Below, piece after piece: positions 4,430-22,167 of a stretch of 22,167 nt of DNA. A model generated the notes under the pieces. It saw nothing but the letters and a program-made list of their open reading frames with translations. It was not told the origin of the DNA and searched no databases. Location: IMG/VR virus record IMGVR_UViG_3300010430_000501, positions 1 through 22,167 of that record; one strand, written 5' to 3'. This DNA comes from a virus. The translations under genes and the position numbers were made by a program. Position 1 is the first letter of the stretch. The number at the start of each line of letters is the position of its first letter.

Positions 4430-4585
4430 GTGAACATGCTAAGAGACGAGACATTTCAAGTATACGGAAGTGACACAGAGTCACAACCACAACCAAGATG
4501 GGCCGATAAGGCTGACTATCTGTATGACGCCGACACAGGTGTACGCTACGTGTGGCACGGCGGCGAATGGAAGGTTATGAAGTAA
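4430..4585 (+). CDS. Small hypothetical protein (51 aa)
   Basis: The GTG start at 4430 has TAGGAGG 6 bases upstream; an internal ATG at 4436 is a possible alternative. The 51 residues are hydrophilic, with QPQPRWADKADYLYD and a Trp-rich end VWHGGEWKVMK. It lies 11 bases after the Acb2-like gene and 12 before the LamG gene, so it fills the gap exactly. A similar short WHGGEW-type ending is common in tiny structural beta modules of phage proteins. Function unknown. Confidence 0.65.
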   Translation: MNMLRDETFQVYGSDTESQPQPRWADKADYLYDADTGVRYVWHGGEWKVMK

Positions 4586-4597
4586 GGGGATGATCTT

Positions 4598-7003
4598 ATG
4601 AAGTTTCCAACGAACAGAATAAGTCCCGCAGCACTGCGGCGAACAGAACCACTAGACACCCATAAGAACGACGGATTACAAGCCCTCATAGTCGAAGGCA
4701 ACGATCGCAACGGTGGCAGCAGTAGACCAGCGGTACCAGGCGTCGAGATTATCGCAGACGAAAGTACACGGGTAGAAACGCCGATCACGGACAGGATGCT
4801 AAACAACAACTTTAGGATGAGGGCAAAGGCAAGAGTCGGAACCCAATACCACAGGGGTATTTGTGGAGTAGTTAATGGCGGTGACGATAGGTTATATTTA
4901 GCAACAGAGCAGTCATATGTATCGTATGGGATAGGTAAAAGCTCTTTTATGCACATGCTTAGTCTTGCAATGGGGGATACGATTGAGGTTGAGGCTATTT
5001 ATTCAAACAATCTACTAAGCTGTTGGTTTAATGGCGAAAAAGTTGCCACCGATCGCGCATCTATTAGAAATATAGGTGACGGATCATTGCAATTGGTCAC
5101 ATCAGGTAGTGATTCAGCAAGGTATACGGGCGCACTGTTAGAGTTTGAGGTTGAACTCTATGAAACAGGCGTGACCTACACCCTCAACACAATACCGTTA
5201 AACGGCGGAGTGTATGAGTTAATCCCTAATGACGGATCGGAGCCTTTGTTGTGTCAACAATATGTTGCACCTTCCGCGCCTACTCAACTTAATACGGAAG
5301 TCGTAAGTATGCAAGATAAGTATGGATACACTGAAGCTGGCGGAAACAAACTCCCTTGGGCTTACGGTAGTAATAGTTTGAGTGATTTATGGGCGTTAGG
5401 GTACGTTCACGATTCAAGCAATGTTGAAACTATGGTAGATGGGACATACACCGCCACAGCTACCAAGCAGTACGGCAGAATATACGTTTACGATATGAAT
5501 GTTATTAAAGGACATACATATTACTTTTCTCTAATTGCAAGTAGATTGTCGGACAAGGTGTCATTCACCGTTCGACACAATACAGTACCTTGGTCAACTT
5601 TCGTAAGTTGCGATGTACCAATAACAGGGGTACCAACAAAGGTCGCTGATATAGGAGTTATCACAGAGGACGGGGTGGTGGGATTTAACGCTCAAGACTC
5701 GAATGCTTCGGGATGGCAACCCTTCACTATGAAAGATCCTCTTGTCTTAGATCTGACAGTCATAAATGAAGTAAGACCTGACCTGGATGTTTTGAACATG
5801 AGTGTAGAAACGATCATGTTATTAGAGGATGTGTTGGTTAAGATCCAACAGTTACATTTTGACAAGAAGGGCGTTAAGCAAGTTCCGACAAACTATCTAT
5901 CGCCCAATTCTTTAGATGGTGTTACTAACACAGCTTATGCTGGGGATGTTGAGTTCCTAACAACACCTCAGATTATAGTTGCAGACAAAAACACTTACAT
6001 TGAGCTTGAAAGGTGGAACCTTGGGTCTGAACATATCATTGAGTTTGAGTCAAAGTATGTAGGTGGCAATGTAATCTTAGGTGACTCTGAAAGTGGGAGA
6101 TCTGCAATAATCTATGGTGGGGATTTATTGAGATATAGAAATGATGTAGACAACTCTAATGATGTAAGCATAGAGGACTATCACAAGTGGTGTGAGTATA
6201 GAGTCGAAGTTGAGAAAACCAACATTAAGATATATAAGGACGATTCTTTAATAATGGATCAGACTAAAGAAGAGAATGACTTCTATCTAGGTAGGATTTT
6301 CTCGTATGAATCAGATAGCTACAGATATGAGGGAGCTCTTAGGGGGTTGAGGATCACTAAAGATAATGTGGTCTACACCTTAAATACAATTCCAGACTCA
6401 AACGGAGTATACACATTTATTCCTAACGATCCGACAGTAGAGCCGATATTGTGTCAACAGTATTTAGCACCAGTGAGCCCAACGGTTGATGATTGGGACG
6501 CAGATGAAATGTTGAATAAGAATGGTTATTCGGTTAGTAGGGCGTTAGGGAAGAACAAGGGCTACACCTACGACTCAAAAGGCACATTGCCAGTTCCACA
6601 TGGCACTCTCATTCCCAACTATCCCGACGGTGTGACATCGACGGCTTATGTCGACGGCGCGCATCCTGAAGGGCAGTACCAAGGCAGTCAGTATCTCACT
6701 CACCCGGTCGGGCAGTGCCGAGGCCGTGTGAAGTATGACATTGAGGTTGTAGGTGGAAATTGGGAGGCCGGCAGTTCGCTTAAACTAGCGGATACCTACC
6801 ATGAGATCGCTAAAGCAGATACACAGCGTATATGGACTGAGCTAGATGGGTCGCCAAAAGAGGTACCGATCGCGACTTTAGCAGAAACGACCAACAATCA
6901 GTTATTCGTTAATAAAACGCGGCAAACGGTAAGTTGGTATGACGCACCTCTCACAGGAGAGGCCTTAAAGAGAGCTAAACTATTGCAAGGATTGGAGGGT
7001 TAA
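4598..7003 (+). CDS. Large modular LamG-like (concanavalin-fold) repeat protein, possible virion decoration or adhesin
   Basis: This 801-residue protein has duplicated modules. Module 1 (about 60-235) and module 2 (about 428-635) both end with YTLNTIP...GVY..IPND....LCQQY.AP (from residues 194 and 593). Both contain an ELE/EFE strand-rich core with a WFNGEKVA or IYKDDSLI strand, as in LamG/concanavalin-like lectin folds. The module start PN..DGVT.TAY occurs near 435 and again at 672, so a third, shortened copy forms the C-terminus. No signal peptide or membrane segment is visible, consistent with assembly into the virion. Codon and base use in the middle (about 4840-6560) is more AT-rich than the ends, suggesting swapped-in modules. 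Its place between terL and portal is unusual for a fibre-like protein; a head fibre or capsid decoration is my inference. Carbohydrate binding is possible but unproven. Confidence 0.7.
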   Translation: MKFPTNRISPAALRRTEPLDTHKNDGLQALIVEGNDRNGGSSRPAVPGVEIIADESTRVETPITDRMLNNNFRMRAKARVGTQYHRGICGVVNGGDDRLYLATEQSYVSYGIGKSSFMHMLSLAMGDTIEVEAIYSNNLLSCWFNGEKVATDRASIRNIGDGSLQLVTSGSDSARYTGALLEFEVELYETGVTYTLNTIPLNGGVYELIPNDGSEPLLCQQYVAPSAPTQLNTEVVSMQDKYGYTEAGGNKLPWAYGSNSLSDLWALGYVHDSSNVETMVDGTYTATATKQYGRIYVYDMNVIKGHTYYFSLIASRLSDKVSFTVRHNTVPWSTFVSCDVPITGVPTKVADIGVITEDGVVGFNAQDSNASGWQPFTMKDPLVLDLTVINEVRPDLDVLNMSVETIMLLEDVLVKIQQLHFDKKGVKQVPTNYLSPNSLDGVTNTAYAGDVEFLTTPQIIVADKNTYIELERWNLGSEHIIEFESKYVGGNVILGDSESGRSAIIYGGDLLRYRNDVDNSNDVSIEDYHKWCEYRVEVEKTNIKIYKDDSLIMDQTKEENDFYLGRIFSYESDSYRYEGALRGLRITKDNVVYTLNTIPDSNGVYTFIPNDPTVEPILCQQYLAPVSPTVDDWDADEMLNKNGYSVSRALGKNKGYTYDSKGTLPVPHGTLIPNYPDGVTSTAYVDGAHPEGQYQGSQYLTHPVGQCRGRVKYDIEVVGGNWEAGSSLKLADTYHEIAKADTQRIWTELDGSPKEVPIATLAETTNNQLFVNKTRQTVSWYDAPLTGEALKRAKLLQGLEG

Positions 7004-13330: not shown

Positions 13331-15352
13331 ATGATACAAAAATTATATGACAAAGTAACAGGATACAACGACACCGCGTCACCCAGCGAGTTGAAAGACA
13401 CAGAGTGTCGGATCCTTTTAAACATGGACTTGGACGAAAGTGGCGGCGCGATTACGAGATCGGGTTTTGACAAGATCAACAATACAATCTTTGGCCATGA
13501 AGTAGAACAAGAGATTGAGTGGCTGGTGAATGGCGTTTCTCGGAAACTGGTTGTGATGAATAGTAAAGTGTTCCTCATGGACAACGACGGTGCCTTAACA
13601 GAAAAGTTGGCAATTGACGACGCCCATATCGATACTATCACAATACAAAACATACTCTACATCATGGATGGATCTGAGATCTATGAGTGGGGGAAAAGTA
13701 ATTATGACGCCAGTGAAACATCGATCGATATAAAGGTTAGTGAGGTGATCTTTAATCTACCTGCGTCAAGCGGCGGCGGTGTAGAAGGTAATTTCTACAA
13801 GGCTAAAGCAGCACATGGAACAACGAACCTTTCTACTGAAAATTTTAGTAACACAACAAAATGGGAAGACGTGACGGATATCAAAGGTGTGATATCTAGC
13901 GTGATACGGCCTGTAACACCAAAAAATGGAGGCTCTAAAGAAAAGGTTAAACTGGTTATTAATTATATGGCCAACACAGCAGGTGACGCTACAATCACCC
14001 TGAATGGCGTCGATAAAAAAGTAACTTTAGCTGCAGACGATACCGCGACGGCCATAGCAGGGAAGATCCGAAGTGCATCATACACTGGGTGGACAACGAG
14101 CGGAGCTGGTAACGAGGTATATTTTGAGGCTACTACTGAAGGGGCAAAGACGGGCGCTTTTTACGATCCTGGTAAAACCGGTGCTTATGGAGCCGTATCC
14201 ATTGAACAGGAGGGCTCTTCCGACGACAACAGCATTGATGATGTGAAGAAGTGTACAAAGTTTGAGCAACACGAGTATTCGAAAAGGATTTTTGCTGTCG
14301 GAAATCCTGATAATCCAACGGCGGTGTACTACTCAGAATTTAACCGTCTCGATTATTGGCGTTCAGACAGTGAACTTTATCCAACAACGCCTGAAGCTGA
14401 AGCCATAGCGCTACTGCCTTTAGATAACGTTATGCTGGTGGGCTTTAACAATAGCTGGTGGTATTGGGCTGGTATTGAAGTTGGCGTGGATGCGCTCTGG
14501 CGAAGGCTACCGATTCCCTATGGACCTATATCCCATAAGTCTGTTGTGCTGACACCTTTTTCATTTACCTTTACTTCTGCGACAGGGGTGTACACCATCC
14601 AATCCAGTATATTGAGTCAAGAAGCTTTGATGATTCAGTCTGATCGGATGATCGTACCCTTGAGTAAGAATAAGGTGGATAAAACCATCAAAGGAATTGT
14701 TAAACCCTATCTGGCCAAGGCGATCTATCACGATAACAAGTACATGTTGGCTTATTGCGACGACCCCCTGTTAACCAGAAACAATAAGGTCTTGGTCTTT
14801 CACGATACAACCAACGGGTTTACCAAGTGGGACGGGCTGCAGGTTAACGGATGGAATAAGACGTCGGATAACGAATTGCGTATAGCCACTAAAAACTTTG
14901 TTCTTCAGAGTAAAGCAGGAAAGATCTCAGACATAAACACGGATACGGGAGCTGATAAAGCGATCCAATCCCATATTAAAACAAAGGATTTAGATTTAGG
15001 CGATCCCTTGGGATCAAAGTACGTATTATTCGTATACCTTTTAATGAAACAATTCGAACTGATGGAAACTCAAGCAACACTCAGTATTGTTGCAGATTAT
15101 AAAGCGCGGTTATTTACAGACGTTCCTTTAGACGAGTCTTTTATATGGGGACGTTCTTGGGGCCGAGTTTGGGGATACCGTGAGTTGATGGAGCTTGAAG
15201 CCGAGCTGAAAGAAAAAGCTTCACGGTTCTCTATAGAGATCAAAGATGAAACTTTAGGGAATCAAATTGGTTTTTACGGTGTAGGTTTTAGTTTTTTAAA
15301 GTTAAGACCTGAAGCTACTTCAATAGATGATGGAAGGGGGTTGATCAAGTAA
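13331..15352 (+). CDS. Tail hub/stabilisation protein, P22 gp10-like, with inserted domain
   Basis: This 673-residue protein starts at an ATG with GTAGGTGATT upstream. The core resembles beta-propeller hub or nozzle proteins of short-tailed phages (P22 gp10 type): RIFAVGNPDNPTAVYYSEFN (about 318-337), LDYWRSDSELYPT, an IALLPLDNVMLVGFNNSWWY blade, SHKSVVLTPFSFTFTSATGV and MLAYCDDPLLTRNNKVLVF. The final propeller blade is followed by KTKDLDLGDPLGSKYVLFVY and a WGRSWGRVWG motif. Residues about 145-300 look inserted: a carbohydrate-binding-like part (YKAKAAHGTTNLSTENFSN, TTKWEDVTD) followed by an Ig-like module with TITLNGVDKKVTLAADDTA and TSGAGNEVYFEATTEGAKTG. It probably closes the portal channel after packaging and receives the fibres encoded next. 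Confidence 0.8.
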   Translation: MIQKLYDKVTGYNDTASPSELKDTECRILLNMDLDESGGAITRSGFDKINNTIFGHEVEQEIEWLVNGVSRKLVVMNSKVFLMDNDGALTEKLAIDDAHIDTITIQNILYIMDGSEIYEWGKSNYDASETSIDIKVSEVIFNLPASSGGGVEGNFYKAKAAHGTTNLSTENFSNTTKWEDVTDIKGVISSVIRPVTPKNGGSKEKVKLVINYMANTAGDATITLNGVDKKVTLAADDTATAIAGKIRSASYTGWTTSGAGNEVYFEATTEGAKTGAFYDPGKTGAYGAVSIEQEGSSDDNSIDDVKKCTKFEQHEYSKRIFAVGNPDNPTAVYYSEFNRLDYWRSDSELYPTTPEAEAIALLPLDNVMLVGFNNSWWYWAGIEVGVDALWRRLPIPYGPISHKSVVLTPFSFTFTSATGVYTIQSSILSQEALMIQSDRMIVPLSKNKVDKTIKGIVKPYLAKAIYHDNKYMLAYCDDPLLTRNNKVLVFHDTTNGFTKWDGLQVNGWNKTSDNELRIATKNFVLQSKAGKISDINTDTGADKAIQSHIKTKDLDLGDPLGSKYVLFVYLLMKQFELMETQATLSIVADYKARLFTDVPLDESFIWGRSWGRVWGYRELMELEAELKEKASRFSIEIKDETLGNQIGFYGVGFSFLKLRPEATSIDDGRGLIK

Positions 15353-18300
15353 TGAAATACCAAAGACAGTTTACCTCAGATGAAGGTCAAAAATCAACGG
15401 GCCTTGGTGGACCAGATCAACTAGAAAAAGAATTTGATAAAATTGGTGTGTTTTTGGATCCAGACGCAACACATGAAGATGGATCTCAGGGCGGGATCGG
15501 TCCTGAAAACTTACAACCAGGGGCGACCACTGACGCAAATATCGGAGATCGAACCGTCAATCAAAATATAACGACAACTGTAGGAAACACAGGGAGCCTT
15601 ACTTTTTTACTGTCCTGGATTGTGAAGATGATAAAAACGGTAACGGGCCGTACCAATTGGTATGACAGCCCGACTCGAAACATGGAACAGCTGGATACAG
15701 ACCTTGCAACTCTCGAAGCTCCTGGGGCGATTAACGACGTGTTGATAGGCGACCGGACAATTAATCAGATGGCTCAACCGCCTCAACCGGGATCGTGGGA
15801 TACGAGCGGCGTAGGGACGTTGTTATCGTATATTGCAAATACGCTGCAAAGAATCACAGGCATGTCCCATTGGTCTGGAACGCCACCCCGAAATTTGTTT
15901 AATTTGAACGCTGATGTGGTTAACCATAAGGGGGATATTAATAATCCCCACGGTGTTGATCGTTCACAACTGGATGTGTATTCTACTACTGAAGTAAATG
16001 GAATCAAAGAGAATTTAGCGGGTCCAGGTCGCGTTTCAGAGACGATCAAAGGCAACAATGATGCCGTGACAGCTGCCCAGCAGCAGTTGGATACACATGG
16101 AGCATCTACAGGGAACCCTCATGTTGTTACAGCAGAGCAGGTGGGGGCCTACAGTAAAACGGAGATGCAGACAGCTGGACAGGCGACCTTACACTGGAAC
16201 AATTTATCGAACGTTCCTAACCTGGCCGACTCTTCTTGGAAACCTGCAGTAAGTACCTACGATCTACTCCCAGTTTCAAGCAACGTCGTAGACGATATGC
16301 GTATTGTTGCAGATGATGGCGACGGTAAAACGGCCATGTATCGATGTAAAGCGACTGCAGGGGTCCGATTAGATCAGTGGGAAAAACTAGCCGATTTAGA
16401 TTGGACCAATGATCACGGGGCCTTGGTTGGATTGAATGACGACGATCACCCTCAGTACGCACGTACCGACGGAACGCGTAAGTACACAGGTCCGATCGAC
16501 TTAGATGGGTTCGCGATTCTTAATGCGGTCTTTAACCCTTCAGATACAGAGCCGGCCACACCCAAGGTAGGTATGCTCTGGTACGATACAGGCAACCAGC
16601 AACTTAAAGTCTACAAGGGTGCAGCTGCAGGTTGGACCGATATCTCAGGCCAAGGTGCGATTGCAAGGCGTGTTGAGATTACAGCAAGTCCAGGACAGAC
16701 AGTCTTTGCTATTGATGAAGGTGGACAGTTTAAGTATGAAGTAGGGACTTGTACCATGGGCGTCTACTTGAAAAACTCAGAGGGGATGTACGAACGCCTT
16801 GACGAAGACAGTTACACAGAATCGAGCTCCCTGACGGTAACGCTTAACAGTGGAGCCCTCTTAAATGATCAGTATATGTTCGAGTGGTTTGAAAACACAC
16901 CGGCCATTATTAATTTAGCGGTTCAAAAAGACGGTACGCTTCAAGCTAATTTGAATGCGGACTTACTGGATGGACAGCATGGATCCTACTATCTGAATGC
17001 GGATAATCACACTGAAGGAGTCATCAACAGATTGTTTACAGCGCTTCTCAGAGATAAACTGAACAACATTGAAGCCGGCGCAACCGCTGATCAAACAGCT
17101 GATGAAATACTGGCTTTAATAAAATCAGTTACCTCGGGCAGTCTGCAATTGAATGACAACGTACAACTGCAATTTGGCTCTGCTTCGGGTGGCGATTTTG
17201 TTATCTATCACGATGGAACAAACCAGATTATCAAAAGTTATAAACATGGCTCACCACTTTATATACAAGGTGAAGATGTAAGTGGTAGTCTTAAGAATTT
17301 AATCCTTGCAGACCCAGATTCAAGTGTAAGATTGTATTATGCGGGAACTGAAAAATTTGCAACTACAGCAGATGGGGTAAAAGTGATAGGTCAGTTAGAA
17401 ACTGATCAAGTAAGGGTTTTAGATGATGCAGGATACGCAAGAGGTCTTTTTCATTATGATGATGCTCAAGAAATGATGATCTTACGAAGTCTCAAACATG
17501 GTGCGGTCGTAGCAATTCAAGGGGAAAATTATGCGACAGGTACAAATAAAAACATATTGATTGCCGATCCAGATGGCGCTACTACCATATATCATGCAGG
17601 AACATCAAAACTAGCGACAACAGCATCGGGCATTAATGTAACGGGAGCGTGTTTGGAAAATAATTTAAGGTTGGCAAATATGCAGACAGTAGGTACTGCA
17701 AGTGATGACCCTAATGCTACATTAAACGGTTTAATACTGACAAATCATGCCAATAGTCCTAACGCTATAGCTGGTAACGGTGGTTATTGGTATGTTGAAA
17801 CAAGATTTTATAATAATGTAAGTGCAGGAGCAAATAGAACGCAGTATGCCACATGTTATGGTTCTTCACCGACAATGAATGGAAAAATGTATATAAGAAG
17901 TTATTATTCATCTTATGGGTGGTCAGATTGGAAGGAAGTAGGTGGTGGAACAATGTTAGTAAAAGCAAGTGATACATTACAACATACAATAAGGAGTGCG
18001 GAGTATTCGAGTCCATTGAATCAAAACATACCAGCTATGGTTGGGATATTAATTCCAAAGTTTTCAGGATCAATTAGAGTTAAAGCAGATCTAGGTTGTG
18101 AAGTAGGGACTTCTGCATATTGTCGATTAGGTATTTTAGCAACAGATATGGGTGGAGGTGGTAGTTCACGTCCTACACAGCCCCACGCATTAGGTAATTA
18201 CGGTACTGATGTTTATATAGGTAAGCCCATAGGAACGTCTTTAGCAAATGCAACAGTATATATGAGTACAATAGCATATTTAAGTGGAAGTACTTATACT

Positions 18301-18438
18301 TCTATAAATTCTGATGTAATGGTTAAAGCAGGAGAGCCACTAATTTTTGGTATCTGGAATCCAAATAATTCTCTAAATCCTAAAATTAAAAATTTAACTG
18401 TTTCCTATACTGAAGTTACTAGTACAGAAGTGCTGTAA
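15352..18438 (+). CDS. Tail fibre / receptor-binding protein (modular, pyocin-knob-like)
   Basis: The 1028-residue protein is coupled to the hub stop (TAATG). It opens with two related modules (about 64-125 and 132-195) each with IGDRT.NQ, a hydrophobic helix and a W-x-x-P-x-R-N end. The middle has fibre repeats with NPHGV or NPHVVTAEQVGAYSKTE, LVGLNDDDHPQY (about 362-373), LLDGQHGSYYLNADNHTEG and DKLNNIEAGATADQTADE (about 569-586). Two tandem beta repeats follow (about 605-690, 705-775) sharing KHG...IQGE, ILADPD and Y.AGT.K.ATTA.G. A pyocin-knob-like part ends YIRSYYSSYGWSDWKEV (about 845-861), then a Ser/Gly/Tyr-rich C-terminal beta module. From about 17150 on the DNA is clearly more AT-rich, as expected of an exchanged receptor-binding end. 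It should recognise the host surface. Confidence 0.85.
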   Translation: MKYQRQFTSDEGQKSTGLGGPDQLEKEFDKIGVFLDPDATHEDGSQGGIGPENLQPGATTDANIGDRTVNQNITTTVGNTGSLTFLLSWIVKMIKTVTGRTNWYDSPTRNMEQLDTDLATLEAPGAINDVLIGDRTINQMAQPPQPGSWDTSGVGTLLSYIANTLQRITGMSHWSGTPPRNLFNLNADVVNHKGDINNPHGVDRSQLDVYSTTEVNGIKENLAGPGRVSETIKGNNDAVTAAQQQLDTHGASTGNPHVVTAEQVGAYSKTEMQTAGQATLHWNNLSNVPNLADSSWKPAVSTYDLLPVSSNVVDDMRIVADDGDGKTAMYRCKATAGVRLDQWEKLADLDWTNDHGALVGLNDDDHPQYARTDGTRKYTGPIDLDGFAILNAVFNPSDTEPATPKVGMLWYDTGNQQLKVYKGAAAGWTDISGQGAIARRVEITASPGQTVFAIDEGGQFKYEVGTCTMGVYLKNSEGMYERLDEDSYTESSSLTVTLNSGALLNDQYMFEWFENTPAIINLAVQKDGTLQANLNADLLDGQHGSYYLNADNHTEGVINRLFTALLRDKLNNIEAGATADQTADEILALIKSVTSGSLQLNDNVQLQFGSASGGDFVIYHDGTNQIIKSYKHGSPLYIQGEDVSGSLKNLILADPDSSVRLYYAGTEKFATTADGVKVIGQLETDQVRVLDDAGYARGLFHYDDAQEMMILRSLKHGAVVAIQGENYATGTNKNILIADPDGATTIYHAGTSKLATTASGINVTGACLENNLRLANMQTVGTASDDPNATLNGLILTNHANSPNAIAGNGGYWYVETRFYNNVSAGANRTQYATCYGSSPTMNGKMYIRSYYSSYGWSDWKEVGGGTMLVKASDTLQHTIRSAEYSSPLNQNIPAMVGILIPKFSGSIRVKADLGCEVGTSAYCRLGILATDMGGGGSSRPTQPHALGNYGTDVYIGKPIGTSLANATVYMSTIAYLSGSTYTSINSDVMVKAGEPLIFGIWNPNNSLNPKIKNLTVSYTEVTSTEVL

Positions 18439-18493
18439 AAAGAAGAGAAGAGAAGAGAAGAGAAGAGAAAAGAAAAGAAGAGAGGAGAGGAGA
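18437..18493 (+). repeat. All-purine pentanucleotide tandem repeat (AGAAG)n
   Basis: From 18441 the units run AGAAG five times, AGAAA twice, AGAAG once, AGAGG twice, then AGATA. The whole stretch 18437-18493 contains only A and G. It fills the space between the fibre stop codon and the chaperone ATG (18498), and the last units supply the GGAGAGGAG ribosome binding site. Simple repeats of this length are prone to slipped-strand copy changes. Because it is untranslated, changes would alter SD context or spacing rather than reading frame. Polypurine tracts can also form triplex DNA. Confidence 0.95.
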
Positions 18494-18497
18494 TAAA

Positions 18498-19040
18498 ATG
18501 AAAATTGGATTTAGTAATGGGTGCAAGAGCGGTAAAGAGTTAATAAGCATGTTTAACTTAGATGCAAGTAATATTGAGAATCTTGACGATTATAATTATG
18601 TAATACTGCCTGATGATTTTTCGTTTACAATGGAAAATAGCACAATTCTATACAATCACGATGAAGACACCTTTGAATTTGTTGATAGTGAAGGTAAGGT
18701 TTTTGACTTGTTAGAAGATGCGAAGCTTGAGAAACGAGCAGAGTTAAACCAAAGGTGTGAAGAAGAAATAGTCAAACCGATCCTGTACAAAGACCACTCC
18801 TTTAAAATGACAAGAGACGATCAATTGAACTTATCGCTTGTCAAGGATCTTATTGAAATGACGGGGCAGACGCAGCCCTATGATGGGGTTTTATTTGTCA
18901 TGGAAGAGGTTAAAGAGTTGGCCCTTTTATTCGGTGCGCAGTTCTACGAAGCTTGGAATAAAAACCAAGAGCTTAAAAGCATCTTGGATTCAAGTGACAC
19001 GGACACATTCGAAAAAGTACAGGCGATCACATGGGAGTAA
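18498..19040 (+). CDS. Tail-fibre assembly chaperone-like protein (DUF4376-like)
   Basis: The 180-residue protein starts after the purine repeat. The N-terminal part (1-75) is an acidic beta region typical of fibre-assembly proteins (VILPDDFSFTMENSTILYNH). The C-terminal part matches the DUF4376-type pattern: KLEKRAELNQRCEEEIVKPI with a following strand, MTRDDQLNLSLVKDLIEMTG, YDGVLFVMEEVKELALLFGA and a last helix EKVQAITWE. Such proteins help fold or trimerise the distal fibre and lie just after the fibre gene, as here. The early part of the gene is AT-rich like the fibre end, consistent with co-transfer of fibre tip and chaperone. Its 3' end overlaps the next gene by 10 bases. Confidence 0.75.
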   Translation: MKIGFSNGCKSGKELISMFNLDASNIENLDDYNYVILPDDFSFTMENSTILYNHDEDTFEFVDSEGKVFDLLEDAKLEKRAELNQRCEEEIVKPILYKDHSFKMTRDDQLNLSLVKDLIEMTGQTQPYDGVLFVMEEVKELALLFGAQFYEAWNKNQELKSILDSSDTDTFEKVQAITWE

Positions 19041-19483
19041 AAACACATTACCTAGTAAGCTATACAGGTGGCGGCTTCTTTGGGTGGGTGGTCAAATTGA
19101 AATCAGGACCTTATTCTCATTCAGCCTTATTGAAACCGGATAAAACCCATGTGGTTGATGTCAACTGGTATCACCGGTTAAAGATACGTCACCTTGCAGC
19201 ACGAAAAGGAAGTTATGAATTAACACCCTTGCAGCTTGACGTTGAAAAGGTAGAAAGTTTTATAAAAAAATACTTAGATACACCTTATGACAAAAAAGGC
19301 GTAATTTCTTTTATAGTGCCATGGATCAAACACGATCCACGGTTTTTTTATTGCTCAGAATTTATGAGAGATCTTATTTACGGTGCGGGCGATTACCCAG
19401 AATTAGAAGCTATTTTAAATGAACCAACGGCACCAACTAAACTGAAAAACACAGTAGAACAAGACGTAAAGGAGGTTACTTAA
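19031..19483 (+). CDS. Permuted NlpC/P60-like hydrolase (YiiX/YebB-type)
   Basis: This 150-residue protein overlaps the previous gene by 10 bases. It shows the permuted papain-like arrangement: a His in SGPYSHSALL (H30) comes first and the Cys in FFYCSEFMRD (C108) later, with a conserved TPYDKKG turn at 84-90. In ordinary NlpC/P60 enzymes the Cys precedes the His. Family members are thiol hydrolases acting on peptidoglycan peptides or lipid/amide bonds. No signal peptide is present. The gene is coupled to the following protease gene by TAATG. A role in wall opening at entry or lysis is inferred; an acyltransferase-like activity is also possible for this superfamily. Confidence 0.75.
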   Translation: MGVKTHYLVSYTGGGFFGWVVKLKSGPYSHSALLKPDKTHVVDVNWYHRLKIRHLAARKGSYELTPLQLDVEKVESFIKKYLDTPYDKKGVISFIVPWIKHDPRFFYCSEFMRDLIYGAGDYPELEAILNEPTAPTKLKNTVEQDVKEVT

Positions 19484-20592
19484 TGAACTTTGAAGAGACG
19501 CTTAAGATCCCTGGCTATTGGGATCTTTTTGAACACACAGGTCGACAAGCTTTCTATCACCAAGGGATCTACGGCCAAAATACGACGGTCATTGTTATGG
19601 ATTCAGGGTGTAATGACCATGTTGAATTTGAAGACCGTGTTATCTGCAGATACAACGCAGTGGACGGGTCTGAAGAAGTATACGATCACAACGGCCACGG
19701 TACGGCCATGGCTGGCGTTATTGCCGGGAAACATGGCATGATGCCCCTGGCTAAGATCGTCATTGTTAAGATAGCTGACGAGAACGGTAATATCTATTTA
19801 CACCACATTGAGGCCGCTTTGGAATGGGCTGCAGCGTACAGAGATCCAGAAACAGGAGAGCCGGCGGACATTATTTCTATTTCGGCCAGTGCGGCTTCAG
19901 GCAGCAAACGATTAAGAGAAGGGGTTCAGGATTGTGAAGATCTGGACATCCTTATTTTTTCGTCTGCAGGTAACAACGGAAATGGACAAACCAGGTACCC
20001 GGCCAATGATCCAAGAGTGGTCGCGACGTGTGCGGTGGACTCCTATCTTGAGTTAGAAGACTATTCAAGCTACAACCAACGTATGATGTTCTGTATGCAC
20101 GGAACGCAAATAATGACAGCTGATCACAAAACAAGAGACGGTTATAAAACATCGACCGGAACTTCGCCGGCGACACCCATGAACGCGGGTACGGCCGGTT
20201 TAATGCGAAGCAAGTACAAGTTTGTACATAATCGTAGAATGACCAATAAGGAAACGCGCGACTTCATGGCCCTGAGTGCCATTGATTTAGGAGCAGTGGG
20301 CTACGATAACAAGTATGGTTTCGGATTCCCTACACTGGATCCTTCGGCACCCCGTGAGTGGACCGTGGTGGTTCCGATCGGCAGCTGCTACATTTACGAT
20401 GGCGGCATTGCAACGAAGATAGACCAACCGGCGGAGATCGACCCGGATACCAACCGAACCATGGTGCCCCTAAGAGCTTTAGCAGAAGCCTTGGATAAAG
20501 AGGTAACCTGGAATGCAGAAAGTCGCACGGCAGGTTTTAGACCACCCAAGTGCACACCGGCTACCGCTAAACCACTGGACGTACGGAGGTAA
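19483..20592 (+). CDS. Subtilisin-family (S8) serine protease with C-terminal Cu-amine-oxidase-N-like domain
   Basis: This 369-residue protein carries an intact catalytic triad: D40 in VIVMDSG, H72 in HNGHGTAMAGVIAG, and S228 in TGTSPATPMNAG. The oxyanion-hole Asn N164 is in SSAGNNGNG. There is no signal peptide or long propeptide, as in intracellular subtilisins, so it is either active in the cell or carried in the virion. Residues about 292-352 (VVVPIGSCYIYDGGIATKID, TMVPLRALAEALDKEVTW, NAESRTAGF) match the Cu_amine_oxidN1 pattern, a small domain found on secreted surface proteins of Bacillota. SD GGAGG lies at 19471-19475. Its location between a wall-hydrolase gene and membrane/wall genes suggests degradation of surface or S-layer protein at infection. 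Subtilases are rare among phage structural genes. Confidence 0.9.
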   Translation: MNFEETLKIPGYWDLFEHTGRQAFYHQGIYGQNTTVIVMDSGCNDHVEFEDRVICRYNAVDGSEEVYDHNGHGTAMAGVIAGKHGMMPLAKIVIVKIADENGNIYLHHIEAALEWAAAYRDPETGEPADIISISASAASGSKRLREGVQDCEDLDILIFSSAGNNGNGQTRYPANDPRVVATCAVDSYLELEDYSSYNQRMMFCMHGTQIMTADHKTRDGYKTSTGTSPATPMNAGTAGLMRSKYKFVHNRRMTNKETRDFMALSAIDLGAVGYDNKYGFGFPTLDPSAPREWTVVVPIGSCYIYDGGIATKIDQPAEIDPDTNRTMVPLRALAEALDKEVTWNAESRTAGFRPPKCTPATAKPLDVRR

Positions 20593-20596
20593 GGAC

Positions 20597-21082
20597 ATGG
20601 AGTTAATCTTAGATAACTTGGACTTAGGAGTTAGTGCGATTTTAATAAGCATATGTTTGTCAGCGATTTACGGTATTGTGATCAAGTTACCTAAGAAGCT
20701 GGAACAATACATTCCCGACTCTTTGGCATTGGTGAAAAGCTTTCAAGCCACCCTTGCCGCAAACACGGAAGTCATGCGTAGGTCGAATGAAATGCACGAT
20801 CAAGGGTGCCATTTTGAACAGATAGCCGACAGTCGACTCAGACAGATCCGGTCACAGATGGAAGAAATGCGAAAGGATTCAGATGAACGTTACGGCGAGG
20901 TTTGGGACTTAACAAACAAGTTGATTGATAATTTATCGGTGATCCGATCGGAAATGCAGATGTTACCTGCAGAACTTGAAAAAACAATCATAAAGGAAAT
21001 GAGTGTTATCAGTACAAAGATGGCTGAAGTTAATGCGTCGATTGCACAGTATACCACGCAGGTCCAACAGTTAAAGGGGTGA
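20597..21082 (+). CDS. Membrane-anchored coiled-coil protein (161 aa), possible lysis-associated
   Basis: Start 20597 is chosen because GGAGGT ends 7 bases before this ATG; an in-frame upstream start lies inside the protease gene and lacks an SD. Residues about 9-30 form one membrane segment (LGVSAILISICLSAIYGIVI). The rest is a long helical coiled coil with heptad-like patterns (RLRQIRSQMEEMRKDSDER; LSVIRSEMQMLPAELEKTI; ISTKMAEVNASIAQYTTQVQ). Topology resembles XhlA-like holin partners or spanin-like proteins, but one span and large size make a classic holin unlikely. It could anchor or organise the neighbouring hydrolases. Function is inferred from position only. Confidence 0.7.
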   Translation: MELILDNLDLGVSAILISICLSAIYGIVIKLPKKLEQYIPDSLALVKSFQATLAANTEVMRRSNEMHDQGCHFEQIADSRLRQIRSQMEEMRKDSDERYGEVWDLTNKLIDNLSVIRSEMQMLPAELEKTIIKEMSVISTKMAEVNASIAQYTTQVQQLKG

Positions 21083-21086
21083 TTGA

Positions 21087-22167
21087 ATGGGGATCCATGA
21101 AAAGCAATTAGAACACGCTAAAGATAATGCAAAAAACAATAAGGATGCAAGTGTAAGGAAAGCTGCACGGGATTTTATTAAGAGGTACGAAAGTGGCGAC
21201 CCCTCGGCCACAGGTAAGAAAAATTCTACGAGCTCACCTGCTAAAAAGAATTCGTCTTCTTCGTCTAAATCAGGCAAAGGGTACGGGAGCTCTTCAACAA
21301 ACAGGAACGGGCACACCACAGTCGATAATACGGGCAGCAGCTTAAACACGGATCAACGTAATGCACAGTCGTGGATCAACGACGCGAAGTCAGGACTCGG
21401 GGGCATGGATGCCTACAAGGCCAACCAGCAAAAAGCCTATAGCAAAGCTATTGAAAGTGGTGATCAAAGCCGAATCGATCGCTTAAGGGCTGATATGCAA
21501 CGCGTGGGATACTCACTTGACTCCACGGGTAACTCTCAGAAAACGGGCAACAACAGCCGAACAGGGAATGGCTACTCCTATGTTGATGATTATGGATTTT
21601 CGCACACTGTTAAGAGTCTTGAAACAGCCGAAAAATACGGAACAGACGTAGACGGCGACGGGAAAGCAGACGTGTTTAATTACGAAGGCGACTTCGGAGG
21701 CGGCTATGCCAAAGACAAAAACGGCAACAGAGCCTACCTGAATCTGCCCGGATCGAGAGCCTACGGTAACGATATTAAAAACGAGGTAAATTACAACACC
21801 ATTGACGGGAGTGGACTTGCTAAGTTTGGCTCTGGTGGAAACCAAAGCGCCCAAGGTGTTACGGAAACCATCAACCCGCACTCTGTTGTTTCCAGTGCTT
21901 CAGCTTCTTCAGCTACACCACAATTCGCTAAGAACTTAGCCTACGGTGCAAGGGGTGACGAGGTTTCTCAGTTACAAAAAGCCCTTGGGGTTGAAGCAGA
22001 CGGGATCTTCGGGAAAGACACCCGAGCTGCCGTTTTAGCTTACCAAAAGAACTCGGGGTTGAGTACTGACGGTGTTGTAGGTAAAGATACGTGGGCGTCG
22101 GTGTTCCAAGCACCAGGTAAAGAAGAAGGTAACGAGAATACGGGGAACCTTCCTGATTGGGCCGTGA
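21087..22167 (+). CDS. Virion/wall-associated protein with EF-hand-like loop and peptidoglycan-binding domain (3' truncated)
   Basis: An ATG at 21087 with AAAGGGGTGATTGA upstream opens a frame that stays open to the window end (360 residues so far). A charged N-terminal helix is followed by a Lys/Ser/Gly-rich linker (about 40-75). A dockerin or EF-hand-like calcium loop DVDGDGKAD sits at 187-195 (D187, D189, D191, D195) and a Ser/Ala linker near 270. A PG_binding_1-like domain follows at about 280-342 with YGARGDEVSQLQKALG, VEADGIFGKDTRAAVLAYQK and TDGVVGKDTWASVF. This domain binds cell-wall glycan. The missing part may hold an enzymatic or ejection-protein region. It could be an endolysin, a tail-tip lysin or an internal virion protein. 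Confidence 0.8.
   Translation, partial: MGIHEKQLEHAKDNAKNNKDASVRKAARDFIKRYESGDPSATGKKNSTSSPAKKNSSSSSKSGKGYGSSSTNRNGHTTVDNTGSSLNTDQRNAQSWINDAKSGLGGMDAYKANQQKAYSKAIESGDQSRIDRLRADMQRVGYSLDSTGNSQKTGNNSRTGNGYSYVDDYGFSHTVKSLETAEKYGTDVDGDGKADVFNYEGDFGGGYAKDKNGNRAYLNLPGSRAYGNDIKNEVNYNTIDGSGLAKFGSGGNQSAQGVTETINPHSVVSSASASSATPQFAKNLAYGARGDEVSQLQKALGVEADGIFGKDTRAAVLAYQKNSGLSTDGVVGKDTWASVFQAPGKEEGNENTGNLPDWAV

Follow-up and report, generated by a model that had tools for sequence, protein, structure and literature searches.

A phage subtilase fused to a CuAO_N unit recurs between tail-fibre and lysis genes and may act on host surface proteins

The window, the whole stretch of DNA analyzed here, comprises the complete record of a 22,167-base linear IMG/VR virus. 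From left to right it carries terminase, portal, capsid and tail-type genes, followed by a gene for a 1028-aa tail fibre-type protein identified by similarity search (15352..18438, + strand) and a tail-fibre-assembly-like gene with a sub-threshold match to DUF4376 (18498..19040, + strand). Downstream of these are a 150-aa gene (19031..19483, + strand), a subtilase gene (19483..20592, + strand), a one-TM coiled-coil gene that is holin-like by position only (20597..21082, + strand), and a PG_binding_1 gene identified with Pfam, the 3' end of which is lost at the end of the record (21087..22166, + strand). No sure holin or catalytic endolysin was seen in the window up to the record end. The 150-aa gene overlaps the subtilase gene from upstream, has no Pfam match and matches the oddly named phrog_1128 (5.6e-7). 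Because it contains GPYSHSALL and FYCSEF motifs, its sequence suggests a permuted NlpC/P60-like (YiiX-type) hydrolase. The head proteins of the window found only distant matches, at about 25% identity, in the Actinobacteria phages Jasmine, Shocker and DS1, and a DNA-level phage search with the head region found no match. Scans of viruses and genomes with the subtilase, the major capsid protein and the product of the 19031 gene as single proteins also returned no match. Promoter and terminator scans of the window gave no more signals than shuffled sequences. A purine-rich run of GAAGA/GAGAA repeats (18440-18492) was found directly before the 18498 gene.

The subtilase gene, placed in the phage late operon at its tail-fibre end, encodes a 369-aa fusion protein matching the phrog_3677 protease (5.1e-47). 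It consists of a Peptidase_S8 catalytic domain (residues 31-281; 19573..20325, + strand), supported by Pfam (2.7e-34), AlphaFold and Foldseek, and a single Cu_amine_oxidN1 unit (residues 294-349; 20362..20529, + strand). This unit (PF07833; 2.2e-8) scored 34.4 bits, or 38.4 bits when the C-terminus was searched alone, against a curated Pfam cut-off of 24.2 bits; the match is confined to model positions 52-105 of 108, in its second half, and corresponds to one repeat unit. AlphaFold modelled it with low confidence only, and its assignment rests on Pfam. The ATG at 19483 overlaps the TAA of the preceding gene, and an AAGGAGG ribosome-binding site (19469..19475, + strand) lies inside the end of that gene; this strong site, AAAGGAGG, is 7 bases 5' of the ATG. 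The catalytic residues Asp40 (DSG motif; 19600..19602), His72 (NGHGT; 19696..19698) and Ser228 (GTSPATP; 20164..20166) and the oxyanion Asn164 (SAGNNG; 19972..19974), all on the + strand, are invariant in alignments of the family defined below. AlphaFold predicted a subtilisin fold with a pLDDT >90 across the catalytic domain, Foldseek matched this model to subtilisins (E 5e-24), and the solved structures nearest by sequence were intracellular subtilisins. By triad order, oxyanion Asn and predicted fold, the protein is identified as a subtilase (MEROPS S8, PF00082) and a predicted protease. The preliminary description had the coordinates, frame, length and complete triad right, and the search that it proposed for PF00082 and PF07833 recovered both. 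Pfam found S8 and CuAO_N only in the protein and no peptidoglycan-cleaving domain. In the window protein a Pro follows the catalytic Ser (20164-20169) where relatives have Met; this is the same change as the M222P of engineered peptiligases among the structure matches.

We then considered export and folding signals. As previously proposed, no signal peptide was found: the best 19-residue stretch within the first 60 residues averages 0.16 on the Kyte-Doolittle scale, and the open frame upstream of the ATG adds 14 residues only. None of the nine family members has a signal-like N-terminus. Pfam detected no I9 inhibitor propeptide in family members, and the LIPY/F N-terminal propeptide motif, present in most viral ISP-like proteins, is absent from the window protein and from the whole family in the nine-member alignment. 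Judged from sequence, the window protein would be classed neither as a secreted subtilisin, marked by a signal peptide and I9, nor as an ISP, marked by LIPY/F. The alignment further revealed a shortened calcium-1 loop (GKHG; 19726..19737, + strand), with 16 residues between the catalytic His and the Pro of GMMP in the window protein. Across the nine members the corresponding span, ending at the GxAP Pro, measures 16-17 residues; of 70 comparison subtilases in which it could be measured, 58 have 22. The family gap, 5-6 residues, falls at the calcium-1 loop of subtilisin. Engineered subtilisins without this loop do not depend on calcium and require a propeptide less for folding; the shortening would therefore suit a propeptide-less enzyme. 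Activation of the enzyme by extracellular calcium at the Ca1 site was considered and then dropped, since that loop is shortened.

We searched 398 Bacillota genomes with the protein. Two matches stood out (5.5e-46 and 8.6e-43), the next host subtilase scoring 6.3e-30. These chromosomal proteins, of 359 and 360 aa, combine an S8 domain with a degenerate CuAO_N1 unit and lack a signal peptide. Each gene has an asparaginase-type gene on one side and a GlnRS gene on the other, with no prophage visible around it. A third chromosomal copy came from the same order, with an extra broken copy on its contig; this one Bacillota order, the source of all three, includes a genome named Peptococcaceae bacterium UBA7185. 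An alignment with the chromosomal copies, used on IMG/VR, retrieved five viral contigs (L211, L212, L214, L215 and L288), of which L212 belongs to an entry that is apparently an isolate genome. We define the family as these nine proteins, namely the window protein, the five from phage contigs and the three chromosomal copies, which share the N-terminus, the triad and the C-terminal unit. The CuAO_N1 cut-off was passed by L211, L214, L288 and L178 and narrowly by L212 and L215, while L177 scored below it. Further searches found no family member in 391 and 63 genomes of classes reached via Tissierellia and Syntrophomonas MAGs (run without a positive control, and with few candidates per genome scored in the first), only generic S8 matches in 245 genomes of the Paenibacillus family, and no record with a locus covering 80% of L211 in a collection of 50,697 phages. 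A plasmid hit, H80, was rejected as an S8-CuAO fusion, being a secreted RHS-type protein. Some looser relatives were also seen. L290 is a looser S8 with a divergent C-terminus, and L266 a distant S8 with a C-terminus that is CuAO-like by eye and has no Pfam match; both lie in the same kind of tail/lysis place as the family genes. L180 and L182 (L348, L349) are chromosomal non-secreted S8 proteins with C-termini CuAO-like by eye; they fall outside the family clade, in neighbourhoods of housekeeping genes.

The phylogeny against host subtilases that had been suggested was constructed from the catalytic domain only. The window protein fell in a ten-row clade with the family proteins and L290 (support 98/93), on a long branch and with the inner order of the clade not settled. 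As a caution, its leave-one-out HMM score of 222.8 bits did not exceed those of L290, L182 and SP-15. L194, a secreted host S8-CuAO protein that carries I9 and matches CuAO_N1 in full, was located elsewhere in the tree. Because L194 branches apart from the family clade, the S8-CuAO pairing arose more than once. The pairing, initially regarded as unusual, is thus not unique, occurring in five more phages, three chromosomal copies and an ordinary secreted host protein.

In all five relative phage contigs, the S8-CuAO gene was located between tail-fibre and lysis genes. A holin gene adjoins it in three of them, upstream in two and downstream in one. In L211 the start of the S8 gene lies 11 bases beyond a Phage_holin_4_1 gene. 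In L214 a holin-like gene, tied by tblastn to the L211 and L212 holins, is followed by the S8 gene from the very next base. In both, an M23+SLH or M23+SLH-like gene is next. In L212 a tail fibre gene is followed by the S8 gene and then by a holin and Amidase_3. In L288 a tail-fibre-type gene precedes the S8 gene, which overlaps an M23+SLH gene; a holin is further on. In L215 it follows fibre-type genes and precedes ejection-like giant proteins, and an M15-like endolysin lies 7.5 kb on. The tail/lysis cluster of the preliminary description was therefore borne out in part: tail-fibre-type genes stand upstream in the window, whereas a catalytic endolysin is not visible there and the lysis side is seen in the relatives. 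Lysis-type queries matched every one of 7 family contigs and none of 62 other viral contigs, a comparison biased by queries taken partly from the family contigs. When 20 window proteins were searched against the relative contigs with tblastn (E<=1e-3), only the S8-CuAO protein matched, apart from CuAO units in L080 and L082. As no other window gene matched, the S8-CuAO gene moves alone, as a module, between unrelated phages. In the gene after S8 (L211:9038-9631, L214:9034-9630, L288:9098-9691), the HLH half of an M23-type motif comes first, the HxxxD half (HWGLDGV/HWALDAV) second, and SLH last; this order suggests circular permutation of an M23 endopeptidase.

We next examined where the C-terminal unit occurs elsewhere. 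Hosts carry CuAO_N as a wall/surface-type domain, in agreement with the preliminary description, and host CuAO proteins mostly start with a hydrophobic stretch (by a crude measure), in contrast to the phage ones. In known phages, it was found on annotated endolysins, a glucosaminidase and amidases. The endolysins of Paenibacillus phages Pd_22F, phiBP and PG1 and of a Syntrophomonadaceae phage share the C-terminal domain and the lysis-end position with the window protein, but their catalytic part cuts peptidoglycan, not protein. Viral contigs also carried CuAO_N on trypsin-like (L080), papain-like (L082, L085) and VanY (L087) proteins, none with a signal peptide; the trypsin-like call in L080 and the papain-like call in L082 are weak, sub-threshold Pfam matches. 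The three protease-CuAO genes (L080:3178-4038, L082:4206-5366, L085:661-1641) were within tail/lysis regions. The fusion principle thus appears to recur with other protease folds. We found no literature match for CuAO together with phages.

Compared with known subtilases, the window protein shares the catalytic fold, Asp-His-Ser order and oxyanion Asn of secreted and intracellular subtilisins but differs in the absence of a signal peptide, I9 and LIPY/F, in the shortened calcium-1 loop and in the added CuAO_N unit. The PHROG 3677 protease and the ISP-like phage subtilases of SP-15, BSP12, FADO and MTATph1 are likewise phage S8 proteins without an export signal. The genes of these four, however, lie away from lysis genes. 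Many viral relatives of the ISP-like type start with LLPY or LIPF, none of those checked with Pfam has CuAO_N, and they branch apart. The 'extracellular serine protease' of Baoshanvirus (Staphylococcus phage Golestan101-M) is encoded inside a tail/baseplate cluster but has no CuAO_N and occupies another branch. A Bacillota lysis enzyme with a surface-binding module, as proposed here, is known in LysBT1, a prophage amidase with SLH, and the B. cereus S-layer has been proposed to keep this endolysin off peptidoglycan (PMC12285257). LysBT1 differs in being a peptidoglycan amidase with SLH rather than CuAO_N; in three family phages, SLH is on the gene after S8. A 350-aa Siphoviridae protein annotated 'S-layer homology domain' (BFVD A0A8S5T9E9) resembled the subtilase model in fold (E 2.4e-15) and is possibly a phage subtilase with SLH.

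The recurrence of the fusion at one kind of place suggests that phages cut host surface proteins with it on entering or leaving the cell. The surface-directed role put forward earlier fits two observations: the gene recurs where tail-fibre genes meet lysis genes, and phage endolysins carry the same domain. With holin genes beside it, a role at lysis is favoured no less than one in the virion. We give an even chance to a late phage protease that reaches the wall via the holin at lysis and cuts surface or S-layer proteins; for this account we infer the timing, wall binding, holin route and substrate. The subtilase would be made without a signal peptide or propeptide, fold in the cytoplasm as a subtilisin lacking the calcium-1 loop, and accumulate alongside other late proteins. 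On holin opening, it would cross the membrane together with the endolysin, and its CuAO_N1 unit would anchor it at the cell wall. There it could cut S-layer or wall-attached proteins; left intact, these would bar the endolysin or hold back progeny. Against this, the chromosomal copies outside prophages indicate that cells too use the architecture, perhaps in the cytoplasm, and an active propeptide-less protease in the cytoplasm would need some restraint. Exit versus entry is the most doubtful step, and the data do not firmly separate the two.

An entry protease, carried on the tail or ejected, could instead open an S-layer or surface protein coat at adsorption. The S8 gene comes after tail-fibre genes in the window and its relatives, the next genes in L215 and perhaps in the window look like virion proteins, and Staphylococcus Baoshanvirus phages hold a different subtilase in their tail/baseplate cluster. 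That subtilase, the one phage S8 whose annotation puts it in a tail cluster, nevertheless branches elsewhere, no tail-attachment domain was seen in the window protein, and in three relatives the gene adjoins a holin rather than lying within baseplate genes. We regard entry as the main rival, though rather unlikely. Still less probable is a processing or host-takeover protease that stays inside the cell and cleaves late phage proteins, such as fibres and ejection proteins, or else proteins of the host cytoplasm, docking its substrate through the CuAO unit. The missing signal peptide, the nearest solved structures, the chromosomal copies and the intracellular-type subtilases that large Bacillus phages have outside lysis regions are in its favour; the distance from the capsid genes, the tail/lysis junction in relatives, the lysis-gene flanks (matched in family loci and in none of the 62 others, with the biased queries noted above) and the wall/surface nature of CuAO_N in hosts argue the other way. 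Prohead maturation, also raised earlier, was rejected, as 7.2 kb separate the gene from the major capsid gene upstream of it, S8 is not the prohead protease fold, and non-prophage chromosomal copies exist. Chromosomal relatives could point to an accidental recent pickup of a host gene without a phage role, the case named earlier as refuting. This is very improbable: the window protein is only about 30-32% identical to them (nearest about 32%), the gene occupies the same kind of place in phages sharing no other matched window gene (six phages with the window), the catalytic residues are kept, and the G+C of the catalytic domain (0.476) is in line with neighbouring genes.

More broadly, and only tentatively, phages of some S-layered or protein-coated Bacillota may possess a dedicated proteolytic lysis arm, in which cytoplasmic proteases of several folds (S8, trypsin-like, papain-like), each joined to CuAO_N as a wall-binding unit, would reach the wall with the endolysin and strip the surface layer. 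In two reviews, of tailed-phage envelope breach and of Gram-positive adsorption (PMC6116005, PMC9863714), no word in the main text starts with 'protease'. A portable subtilase with a wall module, at one kind of place in unrelated phages, makes the need for proteolysis in crossing or leaving protein-coated cells directly testable. As natural subtilisins without a propeptide and with a shortened calcium-1 loop, the family could also be of use to enzyme engineers. In L214, a C-type-lectin-like target gene and a reverse transcriptase gene (L214:2942-4189 and 4564-5865) were found upstream of the S8-CuAO gene and likely constitute a diversity-generating retroelement.
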